Assembly: GCA_037903355.1 (NCBI GenBank)
Contig: JBAJFE010000005.1
Coordinates: 1,302,001 to 1,366,000 of the forward strand
Length of the DNA stretch: 64,000 nucleotides
Source of the DNA: Trichuris trichiura
Lineage: Eukaryota > Nematoda > Enoplea > Trichinellida > Trichuridae
Direction: 5' to 3'
Shown here: positions 5,590 through 31,205 of the stretch, piece after piece
Position numbering within the stretch: position 1 is the stretch's first letter
Layout of the letters: each line of letters starts with the position of its first letter
Made by a program: the position numbers and the translations under genes
The notes under the pieces: model-generated
What the model saw: only the letters and a program-made list of their open reading frames with translations
Databases searched by the model: none
What the model was told of the DNA's origin: nothing

Positions 5590-7200
5590 TCAAAACGCGC
5601 CCTACCAATGAATGGATGAGCTGAGACGTAATATTTAGTTACGATGTTAAAGATTTCTCAGCTAACGTCCCAATAAGTTACGTACTTAAAATCGTGCGCG
5701 ACCCGTTAAGCTTTGTAAGAGCAATCTTTTGTCAGATGAAAGTAACACCTTTCCACTGAGGAAAATTGGCAGCCTTTTGTGGGCGACAGGGCAACTATTT
5801 TAAGTTTGGAGACCGTTTCTTCCTTCAAAAAGACGAGAGGGAGTCCACCCGTGCCACCTCTCCCCGCCAATTTTCGTTGAAGTGCTAATGGAACACCTGG
5901 AACAAACAGCATTTGCTCTCGCGGACAGTGACATGAATCCTTCATTTTTCAAGAAACATGTAGATGACGTTTTTGGCTGAGTTAGCATCCGGATAGAGAA
6001 TTCTTTACTAAGCCATTTAAATAATCTCTTAGCTAGAAAAGTTAAGTTAATAATAGAGGAACAGTTCAACCGCAGGCTAGCATTCCTAGACACCTTGATG
6101 ATTAAGGAAGGAAGTAACCTTAAAAGTGCTGTATTCAGAAAACCCATCCATTCTGACAGGTATGTGCATTTTTCTCCTAACATCCCATTTCTATAAAAGA
6201 GGTATTGCCACCGGTATGGTTCATTGGCCCTCTGTAACTGCGAGCCGTCCCTTTAACCCTTTAACTTGAATCTCATCTCACCCACACTAACTGACGACGG
6301 TGACCCAAAACGTTTCCTTAAATCTATCATACTTTGCAAATTAAGCGATTTACCGCTACCCATTCCTGGAAGTACAACACAGCCTCATTCCGTCTTCTTT
6401 ATTCCCTATTATAACGAAGTGAACAGGTCAAACGCATAGGACAATCGTTTAACTCCGTAATACGCTTTAAAGGTTCCTGTCACCCTGTTTCGACTTTAAC
6501 AAGTGACAAGATCACGTTTCTTTTGACATGACAGCGGTGGCAGCTTAGCAGATCAAATGTGCTTGCAACGTCTCTTAGACATGCCAAACGGACTACGCTT
6601 TGTTTAAAAGGTTCCAAATCATATGAAAATGCTCAACCAGTACTTGCATATCGATGACAGGCTAAAGGGGTCGGAGAAAATACATTCAGGCCAACTGCAA
6701 AACCTATTCCCTGAGAAAATCATGGAAACTACGAAGAACGCCTCCATGGGTGTTCTGTTCAGTGTTCACTCGACCTATTGCCGATGATCATAACGCGAGA
6801 AAACAACTTCCATCTATGTGACATAAAATAGACCTTCTTCATTCCCATTGACGCAAATACCAATCGCGGCCAGGGGTACAGAGGTTAATGATATGTGCAG
6901 CAAACTCGTCAGTAAATACCGCTGCTTCACTACACTGAGATAGTCAGTCCTATGGTTCCCTCGAGAGGCCTATATAAATGTTTAACTGACTGAATCCCTT
7001 CTCCATGTGTTACGCTGACGACGGGAGTAGAGCGTCACAGAAGTTAACTGCGTGTATTCTCTGTGTATTTCCTAACAACTTGCTCATCCATTCGTTGGTA
7101 GGGCGTGTGTTGGTATTTTTATAGGTACAATCACATAGAACGGAAAGAAGCTATGGGAAGATCAAGAATGAGAACTCATAAACCTGTTATCAATCATTCT
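5590..7200 (+). mobile_element. Decayed Penelope-like retroelement (PLE)
   Basis: Approximate extent of a degenerate Penelope-like element. On the left, 5597-5622 carries the inverted form of a terminal motif (gccctaccaatgaatggatg). On the right, 7080-7105 carries it in forward orientation (tgctcatccattcgttggta). Between them is a broken reverse transcriptase. A CTGACGACGGG hairpin-type core lies at about 7015, just before the right terminal motif. The same terminal motif recurs near 16378 and in the palindrome at 52660-52966. Inverted terminal pieces and 5' truncation are typical of PLEs. I found no clear target duplication here. Confidence 0.7.
5820..6250 (+). pseudogene. Penelope-like reverse transcriptase fragment
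   Basis: Read on the plus strand from about 5888, the frame begins MEHLEQTAFALADSD and continues through FFKKHVDDVFG, which matches the YVDD catalytic region of Penelope-like reverse transcriptases with histidine replacing tyrosine. Further on come LAFLDTLMIK, FRKPIHSDRYVHFS and KRGIATGMV, all characteristic of the same family and in the right order. Two in-frame stops interrupt it (after DDVFG, and before KRGIATG). A frame change upstream separates it from a block recalling the GSPLSPLLANIF motif. No intact GIY-YIG endonuclease could be read downstream. The copy is clearly dead. Family assignment rests on remembered motifs, not a search. Confidence 0.85.
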
Positions 7201-15600: not shown

Positions 15601-16260
15601 CGTTATACTCTGTTGCTCTGGTACCATCCCTGTTGGCCAGGATGTTTTGATATCTCTGAGTAAACACAAAACAGGTAAAAAAAATGTATCACCTGAAATT
15701 TCCTTTCCAACAGGAAAGGTGGAATTGGAATGGGATGAAAGAAATGCAGCCACGCGAACCAGCCGTTTTTATCAATAAAAGGCAAACGCTCAACGTGACC
15801 TCACTTTGCTCCTGTTATCTTATCCAACGATTGGTTGCCTTAAGCAAACAGTGCACACGACCCAATTATCTGTCGACCGAATTGCAATAAGCGATGATAT
15901 TGCGCAGTACTGGACGTTATGCTTTAGGTGATTCGCCTAAGGCTGTTGGACACAAATTTTATCTCTCTCTCTCTTATCTAATGCAAGTCGATATGGCCAT
16001 GATATCGCATTTATCGCATGTCTCAGCTTATCTCTTCCGCTACTAACCGTTTTCTATCACAAATTATTGCAAATTTGTATCACATGCAAGAAAGCACTCA
16101 CCTACCTTATTTGACTATATTGAATTATAACTTGTCGCATATGATTTCATAGTGGTTTATGAAAGTGCGAGCCATCAAAGCTTATTTAAATTATTAGCGT
16201 AGCCTTCAGAAAACTGTTCTTTGCGTCTTCAGCGCGAAACTGTTTCATATAACATTTTGA
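12620..16260. other. Intergenic sequence, no supported gene
   Basis: AT-rich sequence with only short, mutually overlapping frames on both strands. No recognisable protein, RNA gene or long repeat was seen. Confidence 0.4.
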
Positions 16261-16297
16261 TTTTGAGTTACATAGAGATTTTGAGTTACATTACCAC

Positions 16298-16515
16298 CAT
16301 GGCTGACGACGGGACAAGGTTAGTCCCGACAGCTACGAAACTGTTAAGTGTTTGTTCTGTATTTTTCCTTAATAATTGCTCATCCATCCGTTGGTAGGAC
16401 ATTTGCTTCGGTTTAATTCCAGAATCCATCAACGGGCAAGAGAACATACCGTATAAAGAAGTTATGAAAATCCATCGCCCCGTTAAGAAGCACCCCGTCT
16501 TCAAGTTCATAATAA
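16298..16515 (+). mobile_element. PLE terminal fragment with degenerate hairpin core
   Basis: Starts with GCTGACGACGGGAC, loop, GTCCCGACAGC, a hairpin motif copy in which the usual GAAA is GACA. About 80 bases later comes tgctcatccatccgttggta, the terminal motif shared with the PLE at 5.6-7.2 kb and the palindrome at 52.7 kb. The end (cgttaagaagcaccccgtct) resembles the right edge of the 52.7 kb copy. Order and spacing are conserved between copies, so this looks like an isolated PLE end. Confidence 0.65.
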
Positions 16516-16787
16516 TTTATGACTATTCTTGGTCAGGGTTATCCGTGTTCTGGTTGTCGATGCTAAGAAAAAGATTTTAAATTGGCAGTTTTATGCAGCA
16601 CAAGCTAACGAATCAGTAAGACGATTCGGAAAGTTCCATTAGTGTTTTGCCTTTTATTATTGCCAATAAAATATTTTTTGAATGCATTTTGTCGGCCCAG
16701 GGATAAAGCCATACAGCAGTAGTCATGAACAGCGAGCGGTCAGGTTAATTCAACCAATCTTCAATCATTATAATTCTATACAATTGG

Positions 16788-16796
<9 letters not shown>

Positions 16797-16880
<84 letters not shown>
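16797..16880. repeat. (AAT)n microsatellite
   Basis: About 84 bases of uninterrupted ATA/AAT trinucleotide repeat. It produces a spurious poly-tyrosine frame on the minus strand. Confidence 0.98.
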
Positions 16881-16881
16881 T

Positions 16882-17200
16882 GTTAGTGCTGCCGCCGTCG
16901 TGGAAGGTCGGTTGGGTGCTCGCCGCAAAGTCTGACTGACTAGGTGGGACCAAAGCCTGACGGGTCAAGGACCGACCTGACGGCTGAGGTTCCCGCCACG
17001 GTCGGTCGGACGGAGCGGCTTGCTAACATAATGATCAACCCGACGGCGGCGCATTTTAGCGCTGATGACGGGCCCCGGTGTGGCCCGAAAGCTCCGCGGG
17101 TTATACGTTTGGAATAAACGTTTTTAACTAACGAACGGGTAGCAAAGCCGCAAAAATATTTTTACATTGAATAACGAACCCGTTAAAAAAAGAGAGAAGA
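16882..17200 (+). mobile_element. Dispersed element: GC-rich module plus hammerhead-like hairpin
   Basis: A GC-rich module of about 175 bases (gtgctgccgccgtcgtgg onward) is followed at 17071 by GCTGATGACGGGCC, loop, GGCCCGAAAGCTCCG, then an AT-rich tail containing aataaacg and aacgaacggg. The whole order recurs in opposite orientation inside the foldback at 22343-22768. This shows it is a mobile repeat and not single-copy sequence. It sits directly after the AAT microsatellite, which may have grown from the element's own end. Confidence 0.75.
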
Positions 17201-17990
17201 AAAGAAAAAAGAAGAATCAAATAAATAATCATAATAATAATCAGACTTGTTCTCTTCCAATCATATAGCAAGAAAAACATTGATTATTGAGTTTTCGCGC
17301 GTATTATCCGAAACCTGCGAGCCTCATTTTAACAAGCACGTGACTCTCCGCTATTCTGTCTGTCTGTCTCTCTCCTGACGAAGATGGCAGCTACTCTGTT
17401 CTGCCCTTATCTAAGCTGAAACAAAAATATATACCATTTGCCTAGATATAGGCTTACGTAAACGAACAACGGGAGTGATGGCAAAGCTACAAGATGACAG
17501 CGAAACGCAGAATCACAAGGTCAATGTCCCTACTTCGACTATCTAGAACAAACCTGACCATTTTCAGGAATAATGTATTGTTTGCAGACAAATGGAGGAA
17601 GAGACTACTTAAGCCAAAATCTGTATACTTTCGGCAGCTGCGCTTTCGACATCTCCGTATTCATGGTTTGTCTGTCTGCCATTTGAATAGAGTGAATTTG
17701 TCCCCACATGGGCAACATCTGACATAGAAAAGTATTGCCACTCTCTGCACCAAAGTTCCTGGCCTATTTTCGACCGCAACACTTTCCCAGAATGACGAAC
17801 ATTTCTTTCCCGCCTTATGAAAATGAATTGAAACGCCAACTGATTATTTCCAATTACAACTACTAGTTGGCCAGTTCATTATAGCGGAGCAACGCTCAGA
17901 CGTGGTCGAACATAAATATCACAAAAGGCATTCAGTATAGCGGGGGCACAAATGAATAAAGACACTAAAGGACTGACACACATCTTGACC

Positions 17991-18075
17991 GCTGACGACG
18001 GGTCGTGACAGACCCGAAAGCTCCGGAAGGAAATTTTCGTTTATTGTTTCTTATCAACGGGACAACAGATCCGTA
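17991..18075 (+). repeat. Hammerhead-like hairpin motif copy
   Basis: GCTGACGACGGGTC, six-base loop, GACCCGAAAGCTCCG, followed by an AT-rich tail with caacggga. Closely matches the copies at 17071 and 22670. Confidence 0.8.
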
Positions 18076-18079
18076 ATAA

Positions 18080-19900
18080 AGACAGTTCAACATGAAGACA
18101 CTAAAGCAGTCCTATTTTATTTAACTGCGATTTCTTCCTCCTACCGATGGCGACGTTCCTATTATTGATGTGTGATTCCTTTTGAACTTCACAGTTCATC
18201 CATAAAGTTGCACCAACCGCTGACACAATAGCACGACTGCATCAAAACCTTACACTTCTCTACTGCGCGACTAACTGGTCAAACTCGATTCAAATGTTGC
18301 AGTATCCGTTTGATTAATGAGGCGTCACCATCACGCATAAGCACCTGTCATGGTACTCAAACTGAACAGATGAGCAAACACTCACAAGTAAAAAAACGAA
18401 TAAGAGGTGACGTAATCATCACACTGTGAAAAGACTTAAGAATCTGCTGATGCTATCATAGAAATCAACAAAAACGTTCTGTAGAAAACGAATTTGATAA
18501 GAAATGAAACCGTCCCTGTAGAATTTCAACTGTCCGAAATCAACGACAAAAGCAACACATTTATGGATGTGTTCAACTAGCGAACAACTCACGCGCATTA
18601 CGAGCCTACTTTCCTTTCCTAATACGGCAAACTTAAACTGTTGTTGTCCTTTAAAGACTAAAAGCCATTATCAAAAGAGACCATCCAAATAATATGGCAT
18701 ACTTCGACAAGCAAAACATTCAATGGCTTTCACACACATTCCCTACTTGACCGTCCATAGATGGACAGCATACGTACGTTCCAAGAAGGCTGACATTTAT
18801 GGTTTCAAAAACATTTGATCGGATTGACGACCAGAAGAACATGAATTCAAATAAACTGTATCTCTTTCAACGAATGAATCACATTGATATTTAGAGTACG
18901 ATACGAACGATGTCCACGCTTAAAGAGAGTATAGGCAACGTTGAACCACTTAAAAAAAGGAAAAATCCTTTTCAAACAATTATTGACGATTGAGTTTGTA
19001 TTCAAAAAGCTCAGGATTTTATTTCATTCATATTGCTTAAATGGAAGTCAGTTGATGCGCATATGAGCTTCTATTGAATGAGAAAATCCTAAAGCAGTCT
19101 AAAGCAGAGGAAAGAATAAGCGAACAAATCATCAGCTATGCAAATTTTTCATTAGCCAGATGACATTACAATAATTAGCTAAGATAAGTAAAGTTCCATT
19201 GTATTAATCAAACTGGCGTCACATCCTTCATTTCAGTTCAAACGAAAATCAAAGAACTATTGAAGCTGTTTGCTATGCAGCATAAGGAATAAACAATAAA
19301 TCATAACGTTCTATCTGAGTTGGTAAAACATTTTAGAACGTGAGAGCGCACGTTGGAAATATTTCTAAGTTTATGAAAATGCTGAGCTCAACGCCAATAC
19401 TAAATACTCATACAGTCAACGATACCATTCTGGAATGATGAATATGAACTATGGAGAACACTAAATTACATATATCGATAGAAACTAATAAGCGCGGAAT
19501 TGCACAGATTCGTTTTCCGTTAACATCAACAAACTATTAGCATAGAAGCGTTGTTGTGTTTTCACTAATGGAAGAACAACAACCGCTTTGTATAGTAAAC
19601 GGATGAACGCATCAATGGGAAATTAAAACACATAATTGTCTTGCAATTGTGAGGAAGATTTTCCAAATTAAACTATAGCGAATGTATTTCATGTGAGGGC
19701 CAACACGAAGAAGAGCCAATATTACAAACTGAACCTAAGAACGTATTAACATTAGTGAACAGAACCAAACAGTTTAAACTCTTTTCTGTTCAATGTGAAC
19801 TTTAAAGTAAAAAGAAGACTGCTGACGTATGAACAGTGCAATTAATCAGTCGATTGCTGCAGTTGTCGCGAACACATCAACTGAAGAAGAGCTGTATGAA
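18080..19900. other. Intergenic region upstream of the EGF-repeat gene
   Basis: AT-rich sequence of 1.8 kb. No coding frame, repeat or clear promoter element was identified. Confidence 0.4.
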
Positions 19901-19914
19901 ACCATAACTGCACT

Positions 19915-22119
19915 ATGAACATTAAAGTCACTTCGCTTGTCTATTGCCTGTTTACTATTGGAATGCTATTCTGTGGTTTAGTGAAGACCGACAAAAACTT
20001 TATCGAACAAGTCAAAAAAGAATGCAAACGGATATTTGAAACGTTTCCACAATTAACTCCACAACATTATGAGAAACCGAGATTTACAGAAGGAAGATGT
20101 GCACATCCAGTGATTGTCAGACGTCTGGGAAGCCGGACTATGAGACTAGAACGTTCTGAACCGTTCACTACGGAAGATAATCAATACGTCTTAGGCGCCG
20201 TGCAGCTTGTTTACGCCCGTTTTGAGGGAGGTCCTCACGTCAACGTATGTGATACCAGTGAACCACTGTATATATACGATCAAGCCTTACCTATTGACTG
20301 TGGACCTTTTGACAACAATTGCATCTTCTATCGTTTGATCGAATTAGTTTGGCCAATACGAGTGGACTACATCGTTCTTGATGGAGCACGAATTGTGAAG
20401 AGAACAAACCGGGTCATAAAAGGCACAATTAATTACTATGTAACTCTCTTAATTTCGCTTGGGAATGGCACTTACATGAACTTGAACTATACAGTCAAAG
20501 CATTCTCAAGTGTGGAGATGAATCAATTTGATCCCTTCCATTTCAGTCACGGTGATCTGTTAAGACTTAACCGTGAGACGCAATTTCCCATGTGCATTTA
20601 TCGCTTTCGTTATTCAGTGCATTCGCAGTATTACCCTTGCAGTGATCGACTGCCGAAGAAGTACTTCTCACTTACTCCAGAAGGCTATTGGTACGAGCCA
20701 TTTGTATTTATAATGTTTAAAGAGTTGAAACCTCAGAAGAGATGGGTCCATGCCCCTTTCGGGATGAGAGAAACATACGCATTGGAAACAAATGCGAGAG
20801 ACTGTTATAAATTGATCTGCCCACAGTCGAATGTTTCTTTTTTCGCATATACTGGCCACTTCTGTGAAAAAAATATAGACGAGTGTGCCTTCGGTGTACA
20901 TCAATGCCCTGCAGGAACAGAATGTCGTGACACAAATACATCATATTACTGTGTATGCGCCGATGGAAGAACTGGAATTAATTGTACAGAAGACGTGGAT
21001 GAATGCGAAGAAGGAACTTATGAATGTTCCATTCATAGTACATGTAAAAATACAAATGGTTCATACAAGTGCGACTGCCATTCAGGGTATACCGGTAAAT
21101 ATTGTACTGAATTGATTGACTATTGCATCATTTATACACCGTGTCAGAATGGAGGTAAATGTCATCCATTGCAAAACGACTATCATTGTGAATGTCCTGC
21201 GGGATATGAAGGTAAAAACTGTACAACTAATATTGACGAATGTCGCAACAATCCATGCGGTGCACATGGAACTTGTGAAGATGGTATCAACAAATACACA
21301 TGCAAATGTGAGCAAGGTTATACTGGTTGGCATTGTGATATCGAAAAAAATAAATGCACAAATGAAAACTTACAATGCGTTCATGGTATGTGTATACGAG
21401 TTAAGGAAGCGGAATATAAATGTGGTTGTTATACTGGATACACAGGAAGATTATGCGATGAAGACATCAATGAATGCACTGATACGACTATTTGCGGATG
21501 GAATGGACATTGCCGTAATGTGAATGGCAGTTTTAAATGTGACTGTGAAAGTGGATTTTTTGGAGATCGATGCGAGGAAGAAACAGATGAATGTGAAAGT
21601 AATCCGTGTACAAAAGGAGGCTATTGTTTAGATGGTAGAGATGCTTATCTATGCATATGCTTCTTAGGTTATGAAGGCATCCATTGTGAACATAAAATAG
21701 ATCATTGTAAATCACATGAATGTGAAAATGAAGGCACATGCGTTAATCTCCCACACGGGTACGCATGCGAATGTCCCGAGTATGCAACTGGCAATTTTTG
21801 TGAAGATTTAATAGATAACTGTAAAAATGAAAACCAATGTGGACAAGGTTATTGCCGTAATAAAAAAGGAGGTTACGAGTGTATCTGTGATGAAGGATAC
21901 ACTGGTAAAAGTTGTAAGACAAAGATTGATCGATGTGCCGATATTGAATGTAGAAATGGCGGCAGTTGCACTTCTAATGATGAAGGCTACACTTGCAATT
22001 GTCCAAAAGGAACTGACGGTTTTTATTGTGAAATAACTGACAATGGAATAGTTGTGCAGATTGAGTGGAAAATACTTTTGTTCGCTTCGCTTTTCTTAGC
22101 CTGGCGACAATTGTATTGA
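19915..22119 (+). CDS. Secreted or surface protein with ten EGF-like repeats, intronless
   Basis: A single 734-codon open frame. Residues 1-25 are a signal-peptide-like hydrophobic start (SLVYCLFTIGMLFCGLV). Residues about 26-315 are a cysteine-containing region with several N-glycosylation sequons that I do not recognise. From about 319 to 705 there are ten consecutive EGF-like modules with the six-cysteine pattern; several carry calcium-binding starts (NIDEC, VDECEE, INECTD) and GYTG-type turns. The last 23 residues are hydrophobic (WKILLFASLFLAW), so the protein may be membrane-held or GPI-linked. A Notch ligand, fibulin or secreted parasite surface protein would all fit the repeat section; no DSL domain was seen. 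Unlike genes in the right half it has no introns and lies in repeat-rich DNA, so a retrocopy is possible, though the frame is intact. Confidence 0.9.
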   Translation: MNIKVTSLVYCLFTIGMLFCGLVKTDKNFIEQVKKECKRIFETFPQLTPQHYEKPRFTEGRCAHPVIVRRLGSRTMRLERSEPFTTEDNQYVLGAVQLVYARFEGGPHVNVCDTSEPLYIYDQALPIDCGPFDNNCIFYRLIELVWPIRVDYIVLDGARIVKRTNRVIKGTINYYVTLLISLGNGTYMNLNYTVKAFSSVEMNQFDPFHFSHGDLLRLNRETQFPMCIYRFRYSVHSQYYPCSDRLPKKYFSLTPEGYWYEPFVFIMFKELKPQKRWVHAPFGMRETYALETNARDCYKLICPQSNVSFFAYTGHFCEKNIDECAFGVHQCPAGTECRDTNTSYYCVCADGRTGINCTEDVDECEEGTYECSIHSTCKNTNGSYKCDCHSGYTGKYCTELIDYCIIYTPCQNGGKCHPLQNDYHCECPAGYEGKNCTTNIDECRNNPCGAHGTCEDGINKYTCKCEQGYTGWHCDIEKNKCTNENLQCVHGMCIRVKEAEYKCGCYTGYTGRLCDEDINECTDTTICGWNGHCRNVNGSFKCDCESGFFGDRCEEETDECESNPCTKGGYCLDGRDAYLCICFLGYEGIHCEHKIDHCKSHECENEGTCVNLPHGYACECPEYATGNFCEDLIDNCKNENQCGQGYCRNKKGGYECICDEGYTGKSCKTKIDRCADIECRNGGSCTSNDEGYTCNCPKGTDGFYCEITDNGIVVQIEWKILLFASLFLAWRQLY

Positions 22120-22342
22120 ATTAAAACGTTTTAACTACACACACAGAGTTATAATATTACGTATTAAATCGTAAACAAAAGCGTTTTATGAACAACTGCG
22201 TAATTTCAGTTTGTCGTTGTAAACGATTGTTTATTTGAGAAAACAATGTTTCCAAAAAGTTGTACAATTCTTTAGAAGAAAAATTCATTTTTCATATGAG
22301 TTTACGGCACGTTTGCCTGTTTTTATTGACAACCTTTTTATT

Positions 22343-22768
22343 CTAAAATTTTTCGCGGAATTTTGGAACCCGTTCTTCTAAAAGTTTATTTTATTTTAAA
22401 AAACTAACGGAGCTTTCGGGCCTCTCCGTGGCCCGTCATCAGCGTAATTGTACCGCCCGTCGGGTCGGTCTTTATGGTTGCAAGCCGCCTCATCCGACCA
22501 ACTTTGGCAGAGACCTACTGCCGTCAGCTCTATCTTGAACCGTCAGGTATCGGTCCCGTCTAGTCAGTCAGACGGCGCAGCGAGCTTCCAACCGACCTCC
22601 CACGACGGCGGCACACGAGCGACCATAAAGTGCAACCATAAAGAGCGACCCGATGGGCGGTACAATTTACGCTGATGACGGGTCAAGCGAAGACCCGAAA
22701 GCTCCGTAAAACGTTTTTTTGAATAAACGTTTAATGAACAACGAGTAAAAATTCCGCGAAAATTTTAG
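22343..22768. mobile_element. Foldback element with hammerhead-like hairpins in both arms
   Basis: Terminal inverted repeats: left 22343-22364 (ctaaaatttttcgcggaatt) and right 22748-22768 (reverse complement, one base shorter). Just inside each end lies the hairpin motif, reversed at 22410-22441 and forward at 22669-22703. Between them is the same GC-rich module as at 16882-17070, here in reverse. The pairing of two head-to-head motif copies around one module suggests two element ends joined as a foldback unit. The outer hAT inserted at its right edge, its duplication overlapping the foldback's last bases. No coding capacity. Confidence 0.8.
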
Positions 22769-22912
22769 ATCAGTGTTTCTCACGGTGGGGCAGGTGCCCC
22801 ACCAGGGGGGCCCATTTGAGCTGTGTGGGGCACATGCCCCACCTGGGCCATCGTGTTGTCGTGCATCGGAAGGTGAGGTCCGAGGGTGAGGTATTGTGCG
22901 TACTGGTTAAGA

Positions 22913-25450
22913 CAGGGGTGGGGAACGTTTTTCGTGCCGCGGGCCGGATAGACGTTTACAAGAGCGCTCGCGGGCCGGATAGCAAAAATGAAAAACAGCC
23001 TGTTTTATTTGCACGTATATTTATGAAGTCACCCCTAATGGGATGTTTGGAACTGCTTTTCCCTGGTGAGGCGTGCGACGTCAGGTCCTTCTGATGACGT
23101 TGCTACTCGCAGCTGGTTCACCAGATTTGTGTCCGTGAGTCTCGTGCGCAGACGGCTCTTTGCGATGGTAAGTTTTGAAAAGAACTGCTCGCAGCAGTAG
23201 GTTGTTCTGAACACGGACGCGTATTTCAAAGCATGTCTCCTCAAAACGAAAAATTCATCGTTGCTTATGTACCGCTTATAGAACTCAAGCAGCGGAAAGT
23301 TGTTGTATTTAGCTTTGAGCTCATCATCGCTTTGCAACTGAATGATCTCGTGCTGCAGTTAATCGGGTACATCAACTGGTTCTACATTGAATGGAATGGC
23401 GAAGACGTTCAGTTGCATCTGTCTACTTTTCACATCGTTGAATCTTTCGCCAAACGCCTCAAGTAGTTTGGCACATTCACCGGCATACTCTAATGTCGTA
23501 GAAGGCTGCTGTCCCTGGAGTGTAGGAAAATGTACCGTGTTGCCCTTTTCAAGTTGCTCTTTCCACAGCCTTAATTTAGCTTCAAATGCTTTCACGTTTG
23601 ATACGAGTGAGCTGAGAAGCTGGTTCGGACCCTGCAGCTTGATATTCAGTTCCGACAGGTACTTGACAATGTCTACCATGAAAGCCAGGTCACATAGCCA
23701 CTTTCTGTCACTTAGTTCTCTGACAGGTTTGCTTTTGGCCTCCATGAACTGCTTAACTTCATCGCGCAGTTGGTAAAACCTCGTTAGCATATTCCCGCAC
23801 CTCAGCCAGCGAACTTCACAATGATAAACGAGATCACCATATTCGGAGGAAAGTTCATTCAAAAAATCTTTAAACAGGCGGTTATTATGCCCTTTGCTCT
23901 TGATACAGTTTACGCACGACACGACTACTGACATCACATTGCTGAAACGCAGCGACCGTGCGCAGAGACTCTGTTTATGTATGATACAATGGCATACTAT
24001 CAAATCGTTCGGATCAAGACCGAGATTATTCATTTCCTTTTTAACAAATGCAACTAGGCCTTTTTGCAAGCCAACCATAGCTGGAGCGCCGTCCGTAGTC
24101 AGACCACTTAATTTTTCAAATTTTTAACCCGAGTCGTTCCATTGATAAAACGAGTTTCTCAAATATGTCCTCACCCCTTGTAGTGCTATGCATGGCTTCC
24201 AGTGATAACAGTTCTTCTCGAGTCTCAAACTCTGCAGTTATCCTGCGAAGGAAAATGGCCAGTTGAGCGGTATTTTTTATGTCCGTAGTCTCGTCACAAG
24301 CCAGGGAAAAAAAATTCAAAGTTACATGCAGTACGCGTCAACGTTTTTTCAATGTCGTCTGCTAAGTCAGTGATCCGGTCTGAAACAGTTCTTCGAGATA
24401 AGCTAACACTTTCGAAAAGTTTTTCACTGGCTGGTGCTAGTAACTTCGCAGCTGCCACCATGCACTCTTTCACAAATTCACCCTCTGCATGGGGTCTTCA
24501 ACTTCTTTGCGATCATTTCGCTCACTACGTAACTCGTTTGAAGAACGCTGTACGCGTCGCAGTGTGGCCTTGTGAAAGCGGCTTGTTGCGACTCCAAATT
24601 CCGTTGAAGCGCCCTGATTCTATCCAGACGCTCTTGGCCTTTTAATTCCATCAATTTTCCATGTTTTGTGCTACAATGCCGTTCCAGATTAGCTTTTTTC
24701 ATAACAGCTACTGAGTCGCCACAAACAAGGCAAACGGGCTTTCCCTTAGCTCCACGAAAAAATAGTCATTCGTCCATTTCTTTTGGAAAATTCGACACTC
24801 CGTATCAACTTTTCTTTTCTTTGAACTGGCCATTTGTAACGTTGGGTGAGCGCGAACACTAGCTTGCGATAAGCTGCACGAAACTTCAGGTTTCAGTATA
24901 ACTTTATGGGCAACTCAGAGCAAAAGGCAGACCTTTGGGACTATACCGCAACCCAGTTGTCAAGAACATAATCACAACTACAGAAAAGCAAACAACCTTT
25001 TTGTACTTCGAAGACGTAAAGGACAGGCGGCCGACAGAAACGGATGAGAACGATAGCAAGAGAAGGCGAGAACGGTGCCAGTGACTGCTGAGAGCAAAAC
25101 AAAGCAGAAGTGCTCTAGCAAGCTGGACAGTCGTCATCTCGAACAAAGCAATGCTCCTCGCTACTATACACGTGCACACACTATAGTGGCGCCTACTGCT
25201 TGTCACCTAGGACTAACAATGTCGGTTTGTTGACAGAGAGCTGTCAGCAACGCAGTCTTCCGAGCAAGCCTGATGCTCCCTGCTTGTTACGCAAGATTTA
25301 TGTTATTACTACGATTCACATACAATACGTCCATCGCATTATGAAAAATAACTTCCCACAATCACATTTCACTGAATCTCGCATCCATGCACGGTTGCCC
25401 CAACGCGTGGGCGGAAAATGGTCTCGCGGGCCGGACGTTCCCCACCCCTG
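22913..25450. mobile_element. Inner hAT transposon, 2538 bp
   Basis: Ends caggggtggggaacgt and acgttccccacccctg are inverted repeats, flanked by a perfect 8-base duplication ggttaaga at 22905-22912 and 25451-25458. GGGCCGGA blocks lie just inside both ends, a common trait of this hAT group. It carries a transposase relic on the minus strand and is inserted inside the outer hAT, so it moved later. Frameshifts in its transposase show that it too has since decayed. Confidence 0.95.
23035..24862 (-). pseudogene. hAT transposase, ZBED/GTF2IRD2-type, frameshifted
   Basis: Reads from a start at 24862 (MASSKKRKVD). A BED zinc finger follows (CLVCGDSVAV, then KKANLERHCSTKHGK), then the hAT catalytic-fold region with FFSLACDETTDI, LTTDGAPAMVGLQKGL, the VRWLRCGNML segment, and a C-terminal part with YISNDEFFVLRRHA and CCEQFFSKLTIAKSR up to the stop near 23035. 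At least five frame changes break it: between the start and the zinc finger, after LKTPCRG, in a T-run before FFSLACD, after ERLGLKI, and after PVDVPD. The family resemblance is to domesticated-looking hAT proteins such as ZBED5 and GTF2IRD2, but the breaks and its place inside inverted repeats show a dead transposon gene. Confidence 0.92.
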
Positions 25451-26154
25451 GGTTAAGATAACGTTGCATGCTATGCGTGATGCCGGCTATCCTCCAATCC
25501 AGCACATGAACCAATCACCGCTCGTGAAAATGACCATTCAGAACACGCGACAGAAGAGATGGCATGTTTGTCACCGTGACTTTCCCGGCGTAGAGTTGGG
25601 TAAGAAAAACTTTCTGCTGAGAAGCATTTAACGCAGAGCACATGGTTCACATCAGAGAATGGTTGTCCGCGTTATCAGAATGCGCCATAGTTTTTGCGAC
25701 GTATTTGCACCTGCTTTACGATTCATCCAGCGATTAGCACGTGTTCGCAGCTGCAGCTTGGTAGCAATGACTCTGCTTTAGAATTTTGTCAACGATTACC
25801 ATCACTTGCCCCGGCTCTGTGAAAAGTCGGCTCCCTTTTTCTTCCCTTTCTTTCCTCGCGTCTATTGTCCACGCAGCTACAATGCAAGCATACGCGTTAG
25901 CGACAGGGAATTGCGTGTGCTGCTCACATATTTTCTGGAAACACTTTGTCGGTGCGGTTGCTTCTCTCCTACGCTCGTTCCAGTTTTGCAAGATGTGACT
26001 GCAAGACGAGCTGCTGGAGTTGCAGTTGAACGTGGAGTTGAAGGGCAGGTTGTCACAGGGTTGTCAGCAGTTCTGGCTGCAGAGAAATCCTAGAGTTGTA
26101 CTGTGGCGTATGGGATGTGGTAAAAAAAGTTACTGGTTTATCTTCCCTCATCGA

Positions 26155-26330
26155 GTCTAGTGGAGCGCGCATTTAGTATCGTTACGGACCTAATGACCAA
26201 GAAACGCAGTCAGCTACAAATAGTCAGACGCGGCGATCTCTGTTTGCGAGTTACCTCGATCGAGCCCAACATCGACAGGCTAGTTCGATTGCATCTGGGC
26301 GAGCCAAGCAGCTCTTGTTGACTTCTCGAA
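26155..26330 (+). pseudogene. hAT transposase C-terminal remnant of the outer element
   Basis: Plus-strand reading gives ERAFSIVTDLMTKKRSQLQI, then RRGDLCLRVTSIEPNIDRLV, which aligns with the hAT family dimerisation region just before the transposon's right end. It lacks an upstream catalytic domain; most of that coding region is lost. Confidence 0.75.
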
Positions 26331-26515
26331 AAACAATTTGCACAAATAAATCTGTACAGCTGTAGTTGACCTTCTAGCGTTGCAACCATTTCAGCCAATC
26401 AGTGCGTTGAAATTGGCCAATCAATGCGCTCGAAGTTGGCCAATCAGAATAGGGGGCCCCGGACGCTCGGAAGCGTTCTCAGGGAGGCCCAAGCTTGAGA
26501 AACACTGTTTTAGAT

Positions 26516-28255
26516 GGTCCTACTATTTTTTTAAAAAAATTATCACCATCATTAGAGATGGGTGAATTGATAACAGGTGCACATGTTTTCATTTTGCCCG
26601 TAGCGAATTTCCCTGTTTTAACAACTTTTACTATGCAGAGCTTTCAGAGTCAACATGCTCCGTCGTCAGCGTTGGAATGATTGCGATTGACAGAAATGTG
26701 GGCTTTATAGGGAAAAAAGGTTAATCAATTGTTATGGTTGTTGTTGGTGCTCTTTTAAATTGGTGACCTGTTGTTTTCTTAACGGTTTCTTCGAATGAAA
26801 ACTTTTTTATCATGGAAATGTTCCCATTTTTTTGCGGGGCTGCAAAAAATTATGAAGCTTTCGGACCCGCCTTTGAACCGTTTTCAACGCAAAAAGCTTT
26901 TCTTTGTTGGTGTCGGGATCGGCTACACAGCAACGTTTCCGTGTCTCCAGTCGACGCGGATATCCGTCGAGTCGAATCTTGACTCATCGAGGTTGATCCC
27001 CACGTGACCGGTGTTATATCAGAGCAATCTCGATAGCGCCGCCCTCAGTGAAAGCCCAACAAAGAATGACAGGAAAACCATTAATGTTAGCCAATCTCAC
27101 AGAATATTGTACACGAAGAAACTCTGGTTATGAAAGCTAGTTGTCACTGATTTAAAGGAAAAACCAAGTGCGAACGGAAACCACGCCGGTTACAAGGTTA
27201 CCAAAAAAGGAAAAGAAGAAAAGGAAAAAAATGAGAGATAGAAAATGAAGGAACAAAAGAGGGGGATAAAAGAAAGAGAAGAAACGAAGGAATAGTGAAG
27301 TGGAGGGTTTAAAATTCTCCGTCTAAACCCCGAGTCAACATTTGCAAAACTATTTTATACTCTGAATTAAAGCCCTCGCCAGTTTACGCCTTAAAATCTG
27401 ACAAATTGTAAACGAATTCATAAAAACTCTTTCGGTGAAGTGCCAATTTTTCTACGTTTCGTGTTTATCATTTAGGACGATTGCATGTAACGCAATGTTT
27501 TGCAAGAGCTTACCCATCGTCGTTGTACAAAAACAAACTAAGAATTATTACAAGATTCAGTCCACATATTGAAATATCATTATTACGGATTCTGTGTCCC
27601 ATTGAGATGTAAAATAAAAAGTTTTTTCTCTCTCTCCGAAGCTTTCGGGTCTGCCGCGACCCGTCTTCAGCGGTCCAAGATTCAGTCCTTATTAAAGTCG
27701 ATCGAAAACTAACTGTATTCTCAAAAGAGATTTTCACTGCAATTTTCCTGCACATAATTTATACAAAGTTTGACAACTTTGCGCCTTCAAAGGAACTCAA
27801 ACACCAATTGGAACTGCTCAGCAAGTGTTTAATGACAAAAAGAGAAACCTTAACGAGTGAAAGTTGCTTAAAAGAAAAACTGATTCCAAAAGTATTAATG
27901 AATTTTTTTGTTCCATATAACTTGTTGAAAGTTCATTGAAAATAATTTAAAATGCTATTCGACGGCATTGTCTAGCTTCGGCGTCAGATTTCGGCCAAAC
28001 TTGTTAAAAACTGCCACAATAATTTCAATATTCTGAGAGACAAAACGACACATGGCAAAGTAAACATGAAGTGAAATACCTTAAGTAGGAAATGGTAGCT
28101 TCTGATTTTACGCAAATATAAAATAAAAACATTGCCCGTCTCACTTATAGTTATTAATAACTTGGCAAACAATGTAATGACCTGATAGAATTTGGCAGAA
28201 CAAGTCGCCCATATCATAATAGAACAAAATCATTTCTACATACCGTTGCAATGGT
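26516..28255. other. Intergenic sequence with motif relics, no gene
   Basis: AT-rich. It contains degenerate hairpin-motif relics in reverse orientation near 26640-26680 and 26862-26900 and an A/G-rich strand-biased stretch at about 27195-27300. No supported coding frame was seen. Confidence 0.45.
27637..27672 (-). repeat. Hammerhead-like hairpin motif copy (reverse)
   Basis: Read on the minus strand: GCTGAAGACGGGTC, loop, GACCCGAAAGCTTCG. Same spacing and paired stem as the other copies, with A in place of the pyrimidine in CTGAYGA. Confidence 0.8.
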
Positions 28256-28258
28256 GAT

Positions 28259-28330
28259 GTCCTTGCAGTGTAGTACTCATCACTTCTGTTTTACACGCAA
28301 AAGGTCCCCGGTTCTGTCCCAGGGAAGGAC
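28259..28330 (+). pseudogene. Degenerate tRNA-Val(UAC)-like sequence
   Basis: The order of parts matches a 72-base tRNA: acceptor gtccttg/gaaggac with one mismatch, a D-arm with gtgt...tcac, an anticodon arm whose loop tttacac holds UAC (valine), and a T-arm cccgg-ttctgtc-ccagg with one mismatch. Mismatches in the acceptor, anticodon and T stems, and the altered T-loop (usually ttcgatc), suggest a pseudogene or the tRNA-derived head of a SINE. The sequence after it is not T-rich, so there is no clear pol III terminator. Confidence 0.6.
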
Positions 28331-28334
28331 AACT

Positions 28335-29365
28335 TACGCGCCGGTGACTTCATAATAGGCAGCTGAACCTTAGGACGCATACATAAAGCCTTAAAGCTTC
28401 ACACGTGTAGTCAGTCTCTTTCAAGTCAATATCCTAATACTATTAAAGATAATTTTCACGGAAGCTAAAGCATTAAAATTCGTTTGCATTCAAAAGGACA
28501 ATTTACTAAAAATGGAAGCAATACAACGTATTTTAAGAAATCATGCTACAGATGATAGCAGTTTCGAGCTCGTCGTGACGACCACCTGATCACATTTAAA
28601 AAAAAAAAAACTTTATTCGAAACAGCCAACCAGTTGAGAGAACTTGTAAAGTTTCATAAAATGCTTTCAGTTTATAGTTCGCAAACTGCAAAACGTGGAT
28701 TAACCGTTGAAAACAATCCACAAACACGCTGCAGCGCTGTCCGATCTGTTGTATGACTTTTCAGTTTTGACTTTAAGCAGGGGAAAGGCGAAATGAGGCC
28801 ATTACAGTAAGATAAAAGAGTAAAAATTAAGCGTCTTTAGTTAACAGACATATAAGCAGTCGCTTTCTGAAAATTTTGTCAACTATTGAACGCAATGCTT
28901 CGCGATGCTGCAGAAAAAAAATATGATCTTCAAGATTGGACATCAAAACTGATCATTGCACAGCTTACGTGGTGCCATGATCAGAACGCAATGCAGCGCA
29001 GTCAAGAAAGGTTCGCTAAAGCAAAACGGCAGTTTTGCCAAACAGCTGGCGTAGTAAAGACAACTGAAGCAACATGTAAGCGGCGTGCGGTCACAACCTC
29101 TCATTTTTAGCAACTTAGTTTCAGCACCTATTTCATCAGTAATTTGGAGACAATGCTGATTCAGAACTAGCATTTTGGACGTAAACCGAAGAAGTAAACC
29201 AAAAAAAATAAACCGCTTACCCAGCCAATTTTGGACGACGAAGTTTGAAGCCTAAAAAGCCACGTCGAAAACAAAACCGAAGCGTAAATGTGCTCAGGTA
29301 TTGTGCCTACAGTACGAACGAAACGCCAACAAAATTGTTAATTTTGCGTGTTTGAGGTGGTTAAA
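28335..29365. other. Intergenic sequence upstream of MRPS34
   Basis: About 1 kb of AT-rich sequence. A 74-codon plus-strand frame at 28886-29110 has no recognisable domain. I see no supported gene. Confidence 0.4.
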
Positions 29366-29368
29366 GAT

Positions 29369-29989
29369 ATGCCGATCAAGTTTATTGGTAACTACGACAT
29401 ATTAGCCGAAGGCAAATACTTATTTGAAATTCTCGCTCAACTTCGTGACTTCGGCGTTGGGCGAATGGTAACAAAAGGTATTTGGCGACGTCGGTGGCCA
29501 AAGGAACCTAGCTACTGCGTGGTTAGGAAAGTGGAACCTGAAATGGATCGTTGGTTAATGCATGGGAAAATGTGGGCCGATTGGGTGCTTAGAGGGAAAC
29601 CTCTTGGAGTCTACTTGTTCAACAAAGAGCTGGATCGCTGCGATTGGCATTTGATACACAAGCATGAGGAGAACGATTTCAAGCGTCCCGTTGAGCCTCC
29701 GAAACTTCGGGTGCCTGCAAAGATTCCGCTTCCTCCGCTGGAAAGGTACTTACAACAGGTAAGAGGAGAGGACACCAATAAAGTACCCAAAGAAATCCGC
29801 AACTGTCCCGACTTAGATGAAGAATTCCAGAGGGCTGATCTATGCTTTCAAGAAAGAGAAGATAGTCTAGATAGCGATGACAGCTCGCCGTCCAAATCTG
29901 TCTACCAATACTTTGATCCCTCAGATTATCTTGACTTTTACGGCAAAGAATTGCCTTGTAAAATAGAAAAATGGGATGCGCCTTCTTGA
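29369..29989 (+). CDS. MRPS34: Mitochondrial small ribosomal subunit protein mS34 (MRPS34)
   Basis: Structural protein of the mitochondrial ribosome small subunit. The 206-codon frame starts MPIKFIGNYDI and contains FEILAQLRDFGVGRMVTKGIW near residues 20-45, where family members have a LPLFGLGRLVTRKSW-like block. It later has DWHLIHKHEENDF near residue 100, matching the family's DWRLVPKHEEEAF. The C-terminal third is acidic and divergent. The open frame continues a few codons upstream without an ATG, so the start at 29369 is the first methionine. It appears intronless. An aataaa polyadenylation signal lies about 60 bases after the stop. Identification rests on remembered family sequence. Confidence 0.85.
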   Translation: MPIKFIGNYDILAEGKYLFEILAQLRDFGVGRMVTKGIWRRRWPKEPSYCVVRKVEPEMDRWLMHGKMWADWVLRGKPLGVYLFNKELDRCDWHLIHKHEENDFKRPVEPPKLRVPAKIPLPPLERYLQQVRGEDTNKVPKEIRNCPDLDEEFQRADLCFQEREDSLDSDDSSPSKSVYQYFDPSDYLDFYGKELPCKIEKWDAPS

Positions 29990-29994
29990 TAATG

Positions 29995-31205
29995 CCTTTT
30001 ATACATTTTTGAGATCCGTTTGATAAAATTGCTGGTTATCTTTTTACATTCAATAAACAGTTCTTGTGCTTTCGTACTGACAATGTTCGGATAAAATAGC
30101 CAAAGTACAAAAGCAGTGTTTTCAGAAATTTTTACTACTTTAAGTTAAAACACTCAAAGGTACGTAATACGGGAAAGAAATCAGTCAAGTGACTATGGTA
30201 CCTGCGAATGCATTAGGAAACACGGTAGTAAAAGTACAGCATGAATTCCTTTCGTTTCTGGACAAGCAAAGGCTATTACCATCTAAATGAATTTTTAAAA
30301 AGTTCACCATTAGCATAGCGATATTTTTTTGCAAAAAGTTCTTTTAAATGCCATTGCTTTGAGGCAGGACTTCGCTAGCACAAAAATACACGGAAAACTA
30401 CTAACAGACAAAAGATGATGCTAAAAGACCTTTATTCTTAGTCAAAGAATAGTTCCTGCTTCCCGCAGCTTTAGACGCAACCTACCGTATCTCTCAGAAT
30501 GCAGGTTCGATTTTGAAAAAAATTCGCCCTTTCTGCTCACCCCTATTGTCAAGATGGAAGCTTACTCATTTTTACCTCCATTTAATTCTGAGCAGAAATA
30601 CAATATTTACTATCAGCTCGTGACTTAGGAAAGGCAGAAACCTACAGTAATATGGTGGCCACTCACCGTACAGTTTCAATGGCTACCATTTTGTTCTACC
30701 CTCAGCGAAGCCTAACCCGAAATGCAAGCCTAACGCTTGCGCTTAAACTTTTTTCTATTTTCTCTCTTCTTCGTAACGGTTTTTCAATTTTCTTATTGAA
30801 AAACTTTTTTTACGGTTTTAACCCGTTTGTTTCACATAACGTCCCTCACGAAGCTTTCGGGTCCTATTTTGACCCGTCCTCAGCGTGTGCTTAAACTTAG
30901 GCAAAATAAAAAAAAATGACCTTCGTGTTTGCCGGCAAAGGTAGAACAGCATGGTCGGCATTGTGGGTTACGATAGGTTCTGTTACGACTTTTGGAAAAC
31001 AAGACGCCAAAGAGCAACCAGTTTTGCATGCAACGAAGTGAGGACGTTAATGATGTTCAAGTTAAGCGTTTGAATTTCCTTAAAACCTGAGGATCATTTC
31101 GGTATTACGTGACGCGGACGAAAAACTGGAACCACAAGCAGAAAACAAAAATTAGCCGATGCTACAAGGATTTCCTTTTTTAAAATTCAGGTTACGCAAT
31201 TATTT
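29995..31205. other. Intergenic sequence between MRPS34 and the receptor-like gene
   Basis: AT-rich and without a supported gene. It contains one reversed hairpin motif copy at about 30850-30886. Confidence 0.5.
30850..30886 (-). repeat. Hammerhead-like hairpin motif copy (reverse)
   Basis: On the minus strand: GCTGAGGACGGGTC, loop, GACCCGAAAGCTTCG, followed about 30 bases later by aaacgggtt as in other copies. The CTGAYGA pyrimidine is G here, so this copy is degenerate in the core. Confidence 0.75.

Follow-up and report, generated by a model that had tools for sequence, protein, structure and literature searches.

Hairpins dispersed through a whipworm genome are probably minimal type I hammerhead ribozymes of Penelope-like retroelements

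A 64,000-nucleotide stretch of the Trichuris trichiura genome (assembly GCA_037903355.1, contig JBAJFE010000005.1, positions 1,302,001 to 1,366,000; hereafter “the window”) carries a family of dispersed hairpins in which CTGANGA, a paired stem and GAAA follow one another as in a hammerhead ribozyme, except for an extra C directly before the stem. Are these hairpins hammerheads, and to what kind of element do they belong? A first-pass annotation, made from the letters of the window alone, had suggested a hammerhead-like core and a connection with Penelope-like elements (PLEs). Having followed the motif through the window and the wider genome, we read the hairpins as hammerhead ribozymes of the minimal type I form, carried by Penelope-like retroelements, and assign this reading, from sequence, a probability of roughly 0.77. 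The motif would then be of an already-known kind, because minimal hammerheads without helix III have already been described in PLEs; the extra C is its real puzzle.

The motif is abundant. The window has GCTGAYGAC at 7 places where 0.58 would be expected, a number that none of 100 shuffles attained. Across 72.7 Mb of the genome the pattern CTGANGACGGN{8,24}CCGAAAGCTY has 2475 exact matches, its reversed-pattern control none; A or G in place of the Y adds 385 and 21, again with none in the control, and two narrower early patterns had given 165 and 1556 (control 0 for the latter). All of these counts are lower bounds. The search patterns fix the core letters and leave N7, position 17, the extra nucleotide, stem I and the inner part of stem II free. 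For the tests below, 139 distinct copies were gathered, or 108 once copies with the same 8+8 flanking bases were merged. Kept among the 108 are 16 copies with G at position 17, which had been fetched on purpose, and 20 without a stem I pair beside the core (9 A-C, 4 G-A, 3 C-C, 2 G-G and 2 T-C), 13 of them from 20 loci chosen for a non-G before CTGA. A similar pattern run over a viral contig collection gave 4 matches, none with a stem I pair; the one at locus L143 lies inside an open frame (306-737), and L142 has the same sequence.

The copies read in the order of a type I hammerhead: 5′ strand of stem I, CUGANGA, the extra base, stem II, GAAA, GC (or CG), U16.1, H17 and 3′ strand of stem I. 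In full copies the CUGANGA and GAAA cores come with a stem I that is typically 3 bp long and a stem II of about 5 bp, and C3 U4 G5 A6 N7 G8 A9 and G12 A13 A14 stand around stem II. Because the patterns require them, the constancy of these letters is a selection effect, N7 excepted; at N7 the 108 copies show all four bases (A 47, T 32, C 16, G 13). Stem I, also free, pairs at its third position (1.3) in 96 of the 108 copies against 50.8 by reshuffling, among them CG (55), GC (15), AT (12) and TA (10). Most of the excess lies there: positions 1.1 (88 vs 81.3) and 1.2 (94 vs 92.9) vary little, 1.6 has a small excess (50 vs 42.1), and pairing farther out is otherwise close to the reshuffled values at 1.4 (30 vs 31.3), 1.5 (40 vs 44.0), 1.7 (44 vs 41.1) and 1.8 (34 vs 37.6). 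Stem I has a mean length of 2.44, where permutations average 1.84 and none of 10000 is as high; since the copies are related, permutation values of this sort are not probabilities. Pairing at 1.3 persists when one copy is taken per distinct hairpin (78/87 vs 38.9) and when the 20 loci chosen for a non-G before CTGA are left out (81/89 vs 42.3).

Stem II behaves likewise. The fetched copies include 87 stem II hairpins that differ from one another, decay variants among them, and in these the third, fourth and fifth pairs form 77, 81 and 68 times against 63.0, 49.0 and 57.8 expected, with no excess at positions six and seven; the first two pairs are uninformative because the pattern fixes them. 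Covariation was scored on two alignments, A1 (30 copies with 16-nt hairpins) and A2 (32 with 17-nt hairpins), whose 62 copies were hand-picked for family variety and hairpin length, other lengths being excluded. The scores are 0.348 for A1 (0.127 shuffled) and 0.509 for A2 (0.157 shuffled), with 0 of 500 shuffles as high in either case. Paired cells make up 94.2% of A1 and 91.8% of A2 (83.1% and 73.8% shuffled), cells changed on both sides number 23 and 52 (4.7 and 14.9 shuffled), and control alignments slid out of register are at most 57% paired and score far lower. For A2, the count of both-side-changed pairs is equalled by 12 of 500 shuffles and that of further pair types by none. RNAalifold, given A2 and no structure, draws the same stems I and II, adding a C10-G12 pair and one lone G-C pair. 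The hammerhead core seen by the first-pass annotation is thus upheld by compensatory changes, far above shuffles and slid controls, in stem II and in a mostly 3-bp stem I. It had looked to stems I and III together for such changes: stem I covaries as hoped, while stem III has collapsed to self-complementary AGCU or ACGU, which it had missed.

What remains of stem III is seen between GAAA and the predicted cleavage site. A15.1 and U16.1 are fixed by the pattern; position 17, among 2881 exact matches, is C or T in 2475, A in 385 and G in 21, hence H in 2860, as befits an A15.1-U16.1 pair followed by a non-G H17. With two free letters (GAAANNT) and the extra C fixed there are 3454 matches, 2881 of them AGCT; as the ACGT form has at most 379 matches with any extra base, at least 194 of the 3454 are neither. 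Among 100 of the 3454 that were listed, 85 are AGCT, 11 ACGT and 4 other (two GTT, two ACT). There is, in other words, no intramolecular stem III, mainly AGCU or ACGU standing in its place, and since these are self-complementary and too short to fold back, a stem III is possible only between two copies. Such an absence is no bar to the minimal PLE subgroup, whose lack of helix III the copies share: PLE hammerheads are described as usually minimal, without helix III or tertiary interactions (PMC6155905).

The Penelope connection holds as well. Six open frames were scanned at loci L059, L060 and L062, and above cut-off two contain RVT_1, three GIY-YIG and one neither, which links the motif, within these motif-fetched loci, to PLEs with both a reverse transcriptase and a GIY-YIG endonuclease. 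Considering the same strand alone, 22 motif copies lie 69-1204 bp downstream of GIY-YIG coding sequence, 18 without counting overlapping loci. For 25 hits to GIY-YIG 3′ ends, where overlapping loci cause some copies to be counted twice, the first motif met downstream within 1 kb is on the same strand in 17 and on the opposite strand in 3, with none in 3 and no room in 2. These rates are biased, because the loci were fetched by the motif; the orientation of the motif and its spread over lineages are informative all the same, the GIY-YIG lineages that carry it having 29-100% amino acid identity. The motif is absent from the 20 best RVT_1 loci of the genome (69.6 kb), where about 3 would be expected at the genome mean. 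The PLE reverse transcriptase of L059 (3518-4888) has matches of at most 78% identity in Trichuris suis and at most 52% in T. muris, among the best 120 of 866 matches. Mitochondrial COX1 from contig C59, translated with the invertebrate mitochondrial code, is 100% identical over 514 residues to a Trichuris cluster bearing the code TRITR, which points to human whipworm, Trichuris trichiura, or a very close relative. A hairpin-like tail motif, AACGGG..YCGTA, follows 18-42 nt past H17 in 55 of 118 copies, often with ATAAA after it, whereas 27 of 1272 background windows contain it; it is possibly the 3′ end of the PLE or a priming signal. Strand order, covarying stems I and II, a reduced stem III, a rare G17 and mostly sense placement 3′ of the endonuclease are thus shown at the level of sequence.

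The extra nucleotide after A9, which the first-pass annotation had singled out as odd, is a trait of the whole family: of 3154 AGCT-type matches, 2881 (91%) have C there and 273 another base. Among 100 non-C places listed, 82 have T, 12 A and 6 G. T at this position is expected from CpG decay. By eye, however, nine close divergent pairs among those 100 places have T in both members, and therefore lineages with U10 have probably been mobile; one such pair lies at C1:7205421 and 7205483. The form without an extra base has 16 matches against 3 in the control, several resembling deletion copies of the main family. Vertebrate PLE copies reportedly carry an additional A in this position; should that hold, having one more base would be a trait of the group, and the choice of C alone would be special.

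Several points weigh against the hammerhead reading. For A1, two of the five covariation measures are unremarkable, namely both-side-changed pairs, a count matched or exceeded by 127 of 500 shuffles, and further pair types, matched or exceeded by 32. The covariance-model comparison through which the first-pass annotation had hoped to place the family matched no Rfam hammerhead, neither in the whole window at the gathering score nor, with E values up to 10 allowed, in 20 loci and window positions 15801-31200. Close neighbours of the same family are divergent in 10 cases, tandem in 2 (both at L061) and convergent in none, and because of their divergent orientation, the close neighbours in those 10 cases do not put a second sense copy on the same RNA. 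Canonical hammerheads have no nucleotide between A9 and 10.1, and the one found here is thus non-canonical and faces the catalytic G12; single-strand folds pair C10 with G12 in 98 of the 108 copies (mean probability 0.85), at a median cost of 2.6 kcal/mol for freeing G12. The published exception to the rule of no extra nucleotide is the hammerhead of the viroid CChMVd, where replacing the extra A10 by C or G is described as strongly harmful and U as raising the rate (PMC3705267). Finally, the Anolis carolinensis Poseidon hammerhead PAc is described as cleaving only with its protein, and its cleavage as dispensable for insertion in vitro (PMC11167929).

The C10-G12 pair of the folds, which RNAalifold also draws, the harm done by an extra C in CChMVd and the dispensability of PAc cleavage for insertion in vitro are what a rival explanation would build on: a hammerhead-derived structure that does not cleave, in which C10 pairs with G12 to give a hairpin of 6 bp, flanked by conserved sequence and recognised by the PLE reverse transcriptase or endonuclease. 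A mere binding hairpin would have no need of a covarying stem I, a scarce G17 or a free N7, and U10 in both members of several divergent pairs suggests that the C is not required, although U can still wobble with G12. On this balance we regard loss of cleavage as unlikely, while still worth taking seriously.

It could also be supposed that these are ordinary dispersed transposon repeats, whose core is alike by recent descent and whose likeness to a hammerhead is coincidental; the copies do fall into repeat families, and many are near-identical. The same core is nevertheless found in PLE lineages whose GIY-YIG proteins are just 29-47% identical to the reference (L003, L025 and L027), stem letters and loops vary with compensation, and the hammerhead traits that the patterns leave free (stem I, N7 and position 17) agree with one another. 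Coincidence is already disfavoured on these grounds, and we think it very improbable. Membership of another self-cleaving class (twister-sister, pistol or similar), or of the C/D-box or SECIS-like k-turn RNAs, for which the C-box-like TGATGA, the paired elements around an asymmetric loop and a GlsR13 C/D snoRNA match over the L101 copy (E 4.1, 17.7 bits against a cut-off of 100) might speak, is scarcely credible given the type I stem order and conserved letters, the lack of any Rfam ribozyme match within the range searched at E up to 10, and a SNORD36 match in L011 that lies outside the motif.

Two other readings of the same letters were dropped. A type III reading, with GCTYCG as stem III and an upstream CGRAGC as its partner, was abandoned on inspection, since stem I covaries in the type I register and the upstream strand is supplied by inverted partner copies; a register shift, taking C10-G12 as the 10.1-11.1 pair and AAA as the core, would break the covarying register of stem I. 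The remaining Rfam matches were likewise rejected. Resemblances to microRNA precursors at L011 (1511-1607) and L066 (184-269), with E down to 1.4e-10 and below the gathering score, are perfect hairpins, or palindromes, made by divergent copy pairs, which are thus an annotation trap. CrcZ sits on an AAT microsatellite, and MicA, tRNA, SmY, GlsR13, SNORD36 and other matches are weak and below cut-off.

Divergent copies (minus, then plus) stand 67-753 bp apart at L004, L007, L011, L019, L028, L032, L036, L061, L064 and L080, and such pairs probably represent the inverted 5′ tail of PLE insertions. At L061 (1011-2080; G000:C1:2084500-2087500) a 475-bp unit is in addition repeated in tandem (2.3 copies, 99% identical), and the resulting array contains three direct hammerheads and one inverted. 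The array is retrozyme-like, yet with the minimal hammerhead, and by eye the window copy at 17062 belongs to the same family.

Sites in the window were found by reading and by a regular-expression scan (Table 1). Of the nine hairpin sites listed in the first-pass annotation, six keep core, stem II and GAAAGCTH intact, and three (16303, 26638 on the reverse strand, and 7015) are decayed. The stem II variants that it had noted are real, GGGCC and GGGTC occurring in full window copies, and GGGAC both in the decayed copy at 16303 and outside the window in copies that are intact. The Penelope-like reverse transcriptase fragment lies upstream of the 7015 remnant. A long AAT microsatellite (16796-16881) lies upstream of the 17062 element, and a 739-amino-acid open frame, whose 3′ end reads by eye as an EGF-like repeat, spans 19900-22119 and is probably a host gene beside the divergent hammerhead pair.

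Table 1. Candidate minimal hammerhead motifs and associated features in the window
Feature	Position	Strand	Details
Minimal hammerhead motif, C3 to H17	17062..17094	+	H17 = C; stem II GGGCC/GGCCC; extra C after A9
5′ side of stem I (GCG), copy at 17062	17059..17061	+	partner CGC at 17095-17097
Minimal hammerhead motif	17992..18023	+	H17 = C; stem II GGGTC/GACCC; stem I CCG/CGG
Tail motif AACGGG..TCCGTA, then ATAAA, of the 17992 copy	18056..18075	+	
Minimal hammerhead motif	22410..22442	-	H17 = C; stem II GGGCC/GGCCC; stem I ACG/CGT; divergent to 22672 copy
Minimal hammerhead motif	22672..22704	+	H17 = C; stem II GGGTC/GACCC; stem I 6 bp, TTTACG/CGTAAA
Minimal hammerhead motif	27639..27670	-	H17 = T; stem II GGGTC/GACCC; stem I CCG/CGG
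Minimal hammerhead motif	30851..30883	-	H17 = T; stem I 4 bp, CACG/CGTG
Decayed copy, GGGACAAGGTTAGTCCC family	16303..16335	+	GACA replaces GAAA; stem I broken; compare loci L018, L027
Decayed copy	26638..26669	-	stem II weakened; third stem I pair broken
5′ remnant	7015..7040 (end approximate)	+	core CTGACGAC kept; 3′ half gone
Decayed Penelope-like reverse transcriptase fragment	5625..6349	+	about 30-38% amino acid identity; tblastn E down to 1.7e-20

How might such hammerheads work? If they are minimal type I ribozymes, AGCU, being unable to pair inside a single copy, would pair between two copies, either on the same RNA (there is one tandem array) or on separate RNAs, and the PLE protein may help. 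Cutting of the RNA 3′ of H17 would follow, leaving either defined ends for use in retrotransposition or templates of unit length that are perhaps circular. The C10-G12 pair would add one pair to stem II, and because C10 can pair with G12, a lone copy may rest inactive or slow, cutting only on binding of a dimer partner or of protein. Carried one step further, and here we are doubtful enough to call the idea a conjecture, the extra C could be a built-in latch that pairs with G12, the presumed general base, and keeps the hammerhead off until a second copy or the element's protein arrives. A latch, if true, would make the family a genome-wide class of conditional ribozymes tying RNA cutting to retrotransposition. 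A search of the open-licence literature, judged by title, found no hammerhead or Penelope report for Trichuris. By the present analysis a medically relevant worm carries hammerhead motifs in the thousands, and the 87 distinct stem II hairpins offer a natural series for studying what an additional core nucleotide does and what a stem III formed only by dimers does.

Among known systems, the CChMVd hammerhead is a full three-stem form. Its plus-strand version shares with the whipworm motif the one extra nucleotide between A9 and 10.1, but it belongs to a viroid, and its extra base is A, with C strongly harmful there (PMC3705267). Metazoan retrozymes consist of short units in tandem that each contain a type I hammerhead, much like the 475-bp unit at L061 with its three direct copies; the retrozyme hammerheads are described as canonical with loop contacts, whereas the L061 motif is of the minimal form, and in a coral more than 6000 type I motifs are reported, 1508 of them canonical and the rest like the minimal kind (PMC7229834). 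Poseidon is the same kind of element, but PAc overlaps the start of an open reading frame, whereas whipworm copies lie mostly 3′ of the endonuclease; the 26 bp stated from start codon to cut in PAc (PMC11167929) equal the span from A9 to H17 in whipworm copies with a 16-nt hairpin. From this match we infer, and only infer, that an extra U10 would fit PAc, ATG being A9-U10-G10.1.

The small hammerhead variants of Lunse, Weinberg and Breaker reportedly have a diminished stem III. Their 2017 title, as it stands in the reference list of PMC10085705, names small hammerhead variants, PLE association and dimer cleavage, and is thus like the whipworm motif in PLE association and in the dimer mechanism, which in whipworm is proposed. 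A close match is also given by the minimal type I hammerheads of PLEs (Cervera and De la Pena 2014, via PMC6155905 and PMC7229834). As far as others' descriptions of them allow comparison, the whipworm copies share their type I order, core, lack of helix III and siting in PLEs, and differ in the extra C that most of them have after A9, in AGCU as the main remnant of stem III and in being carried by a whipworm.

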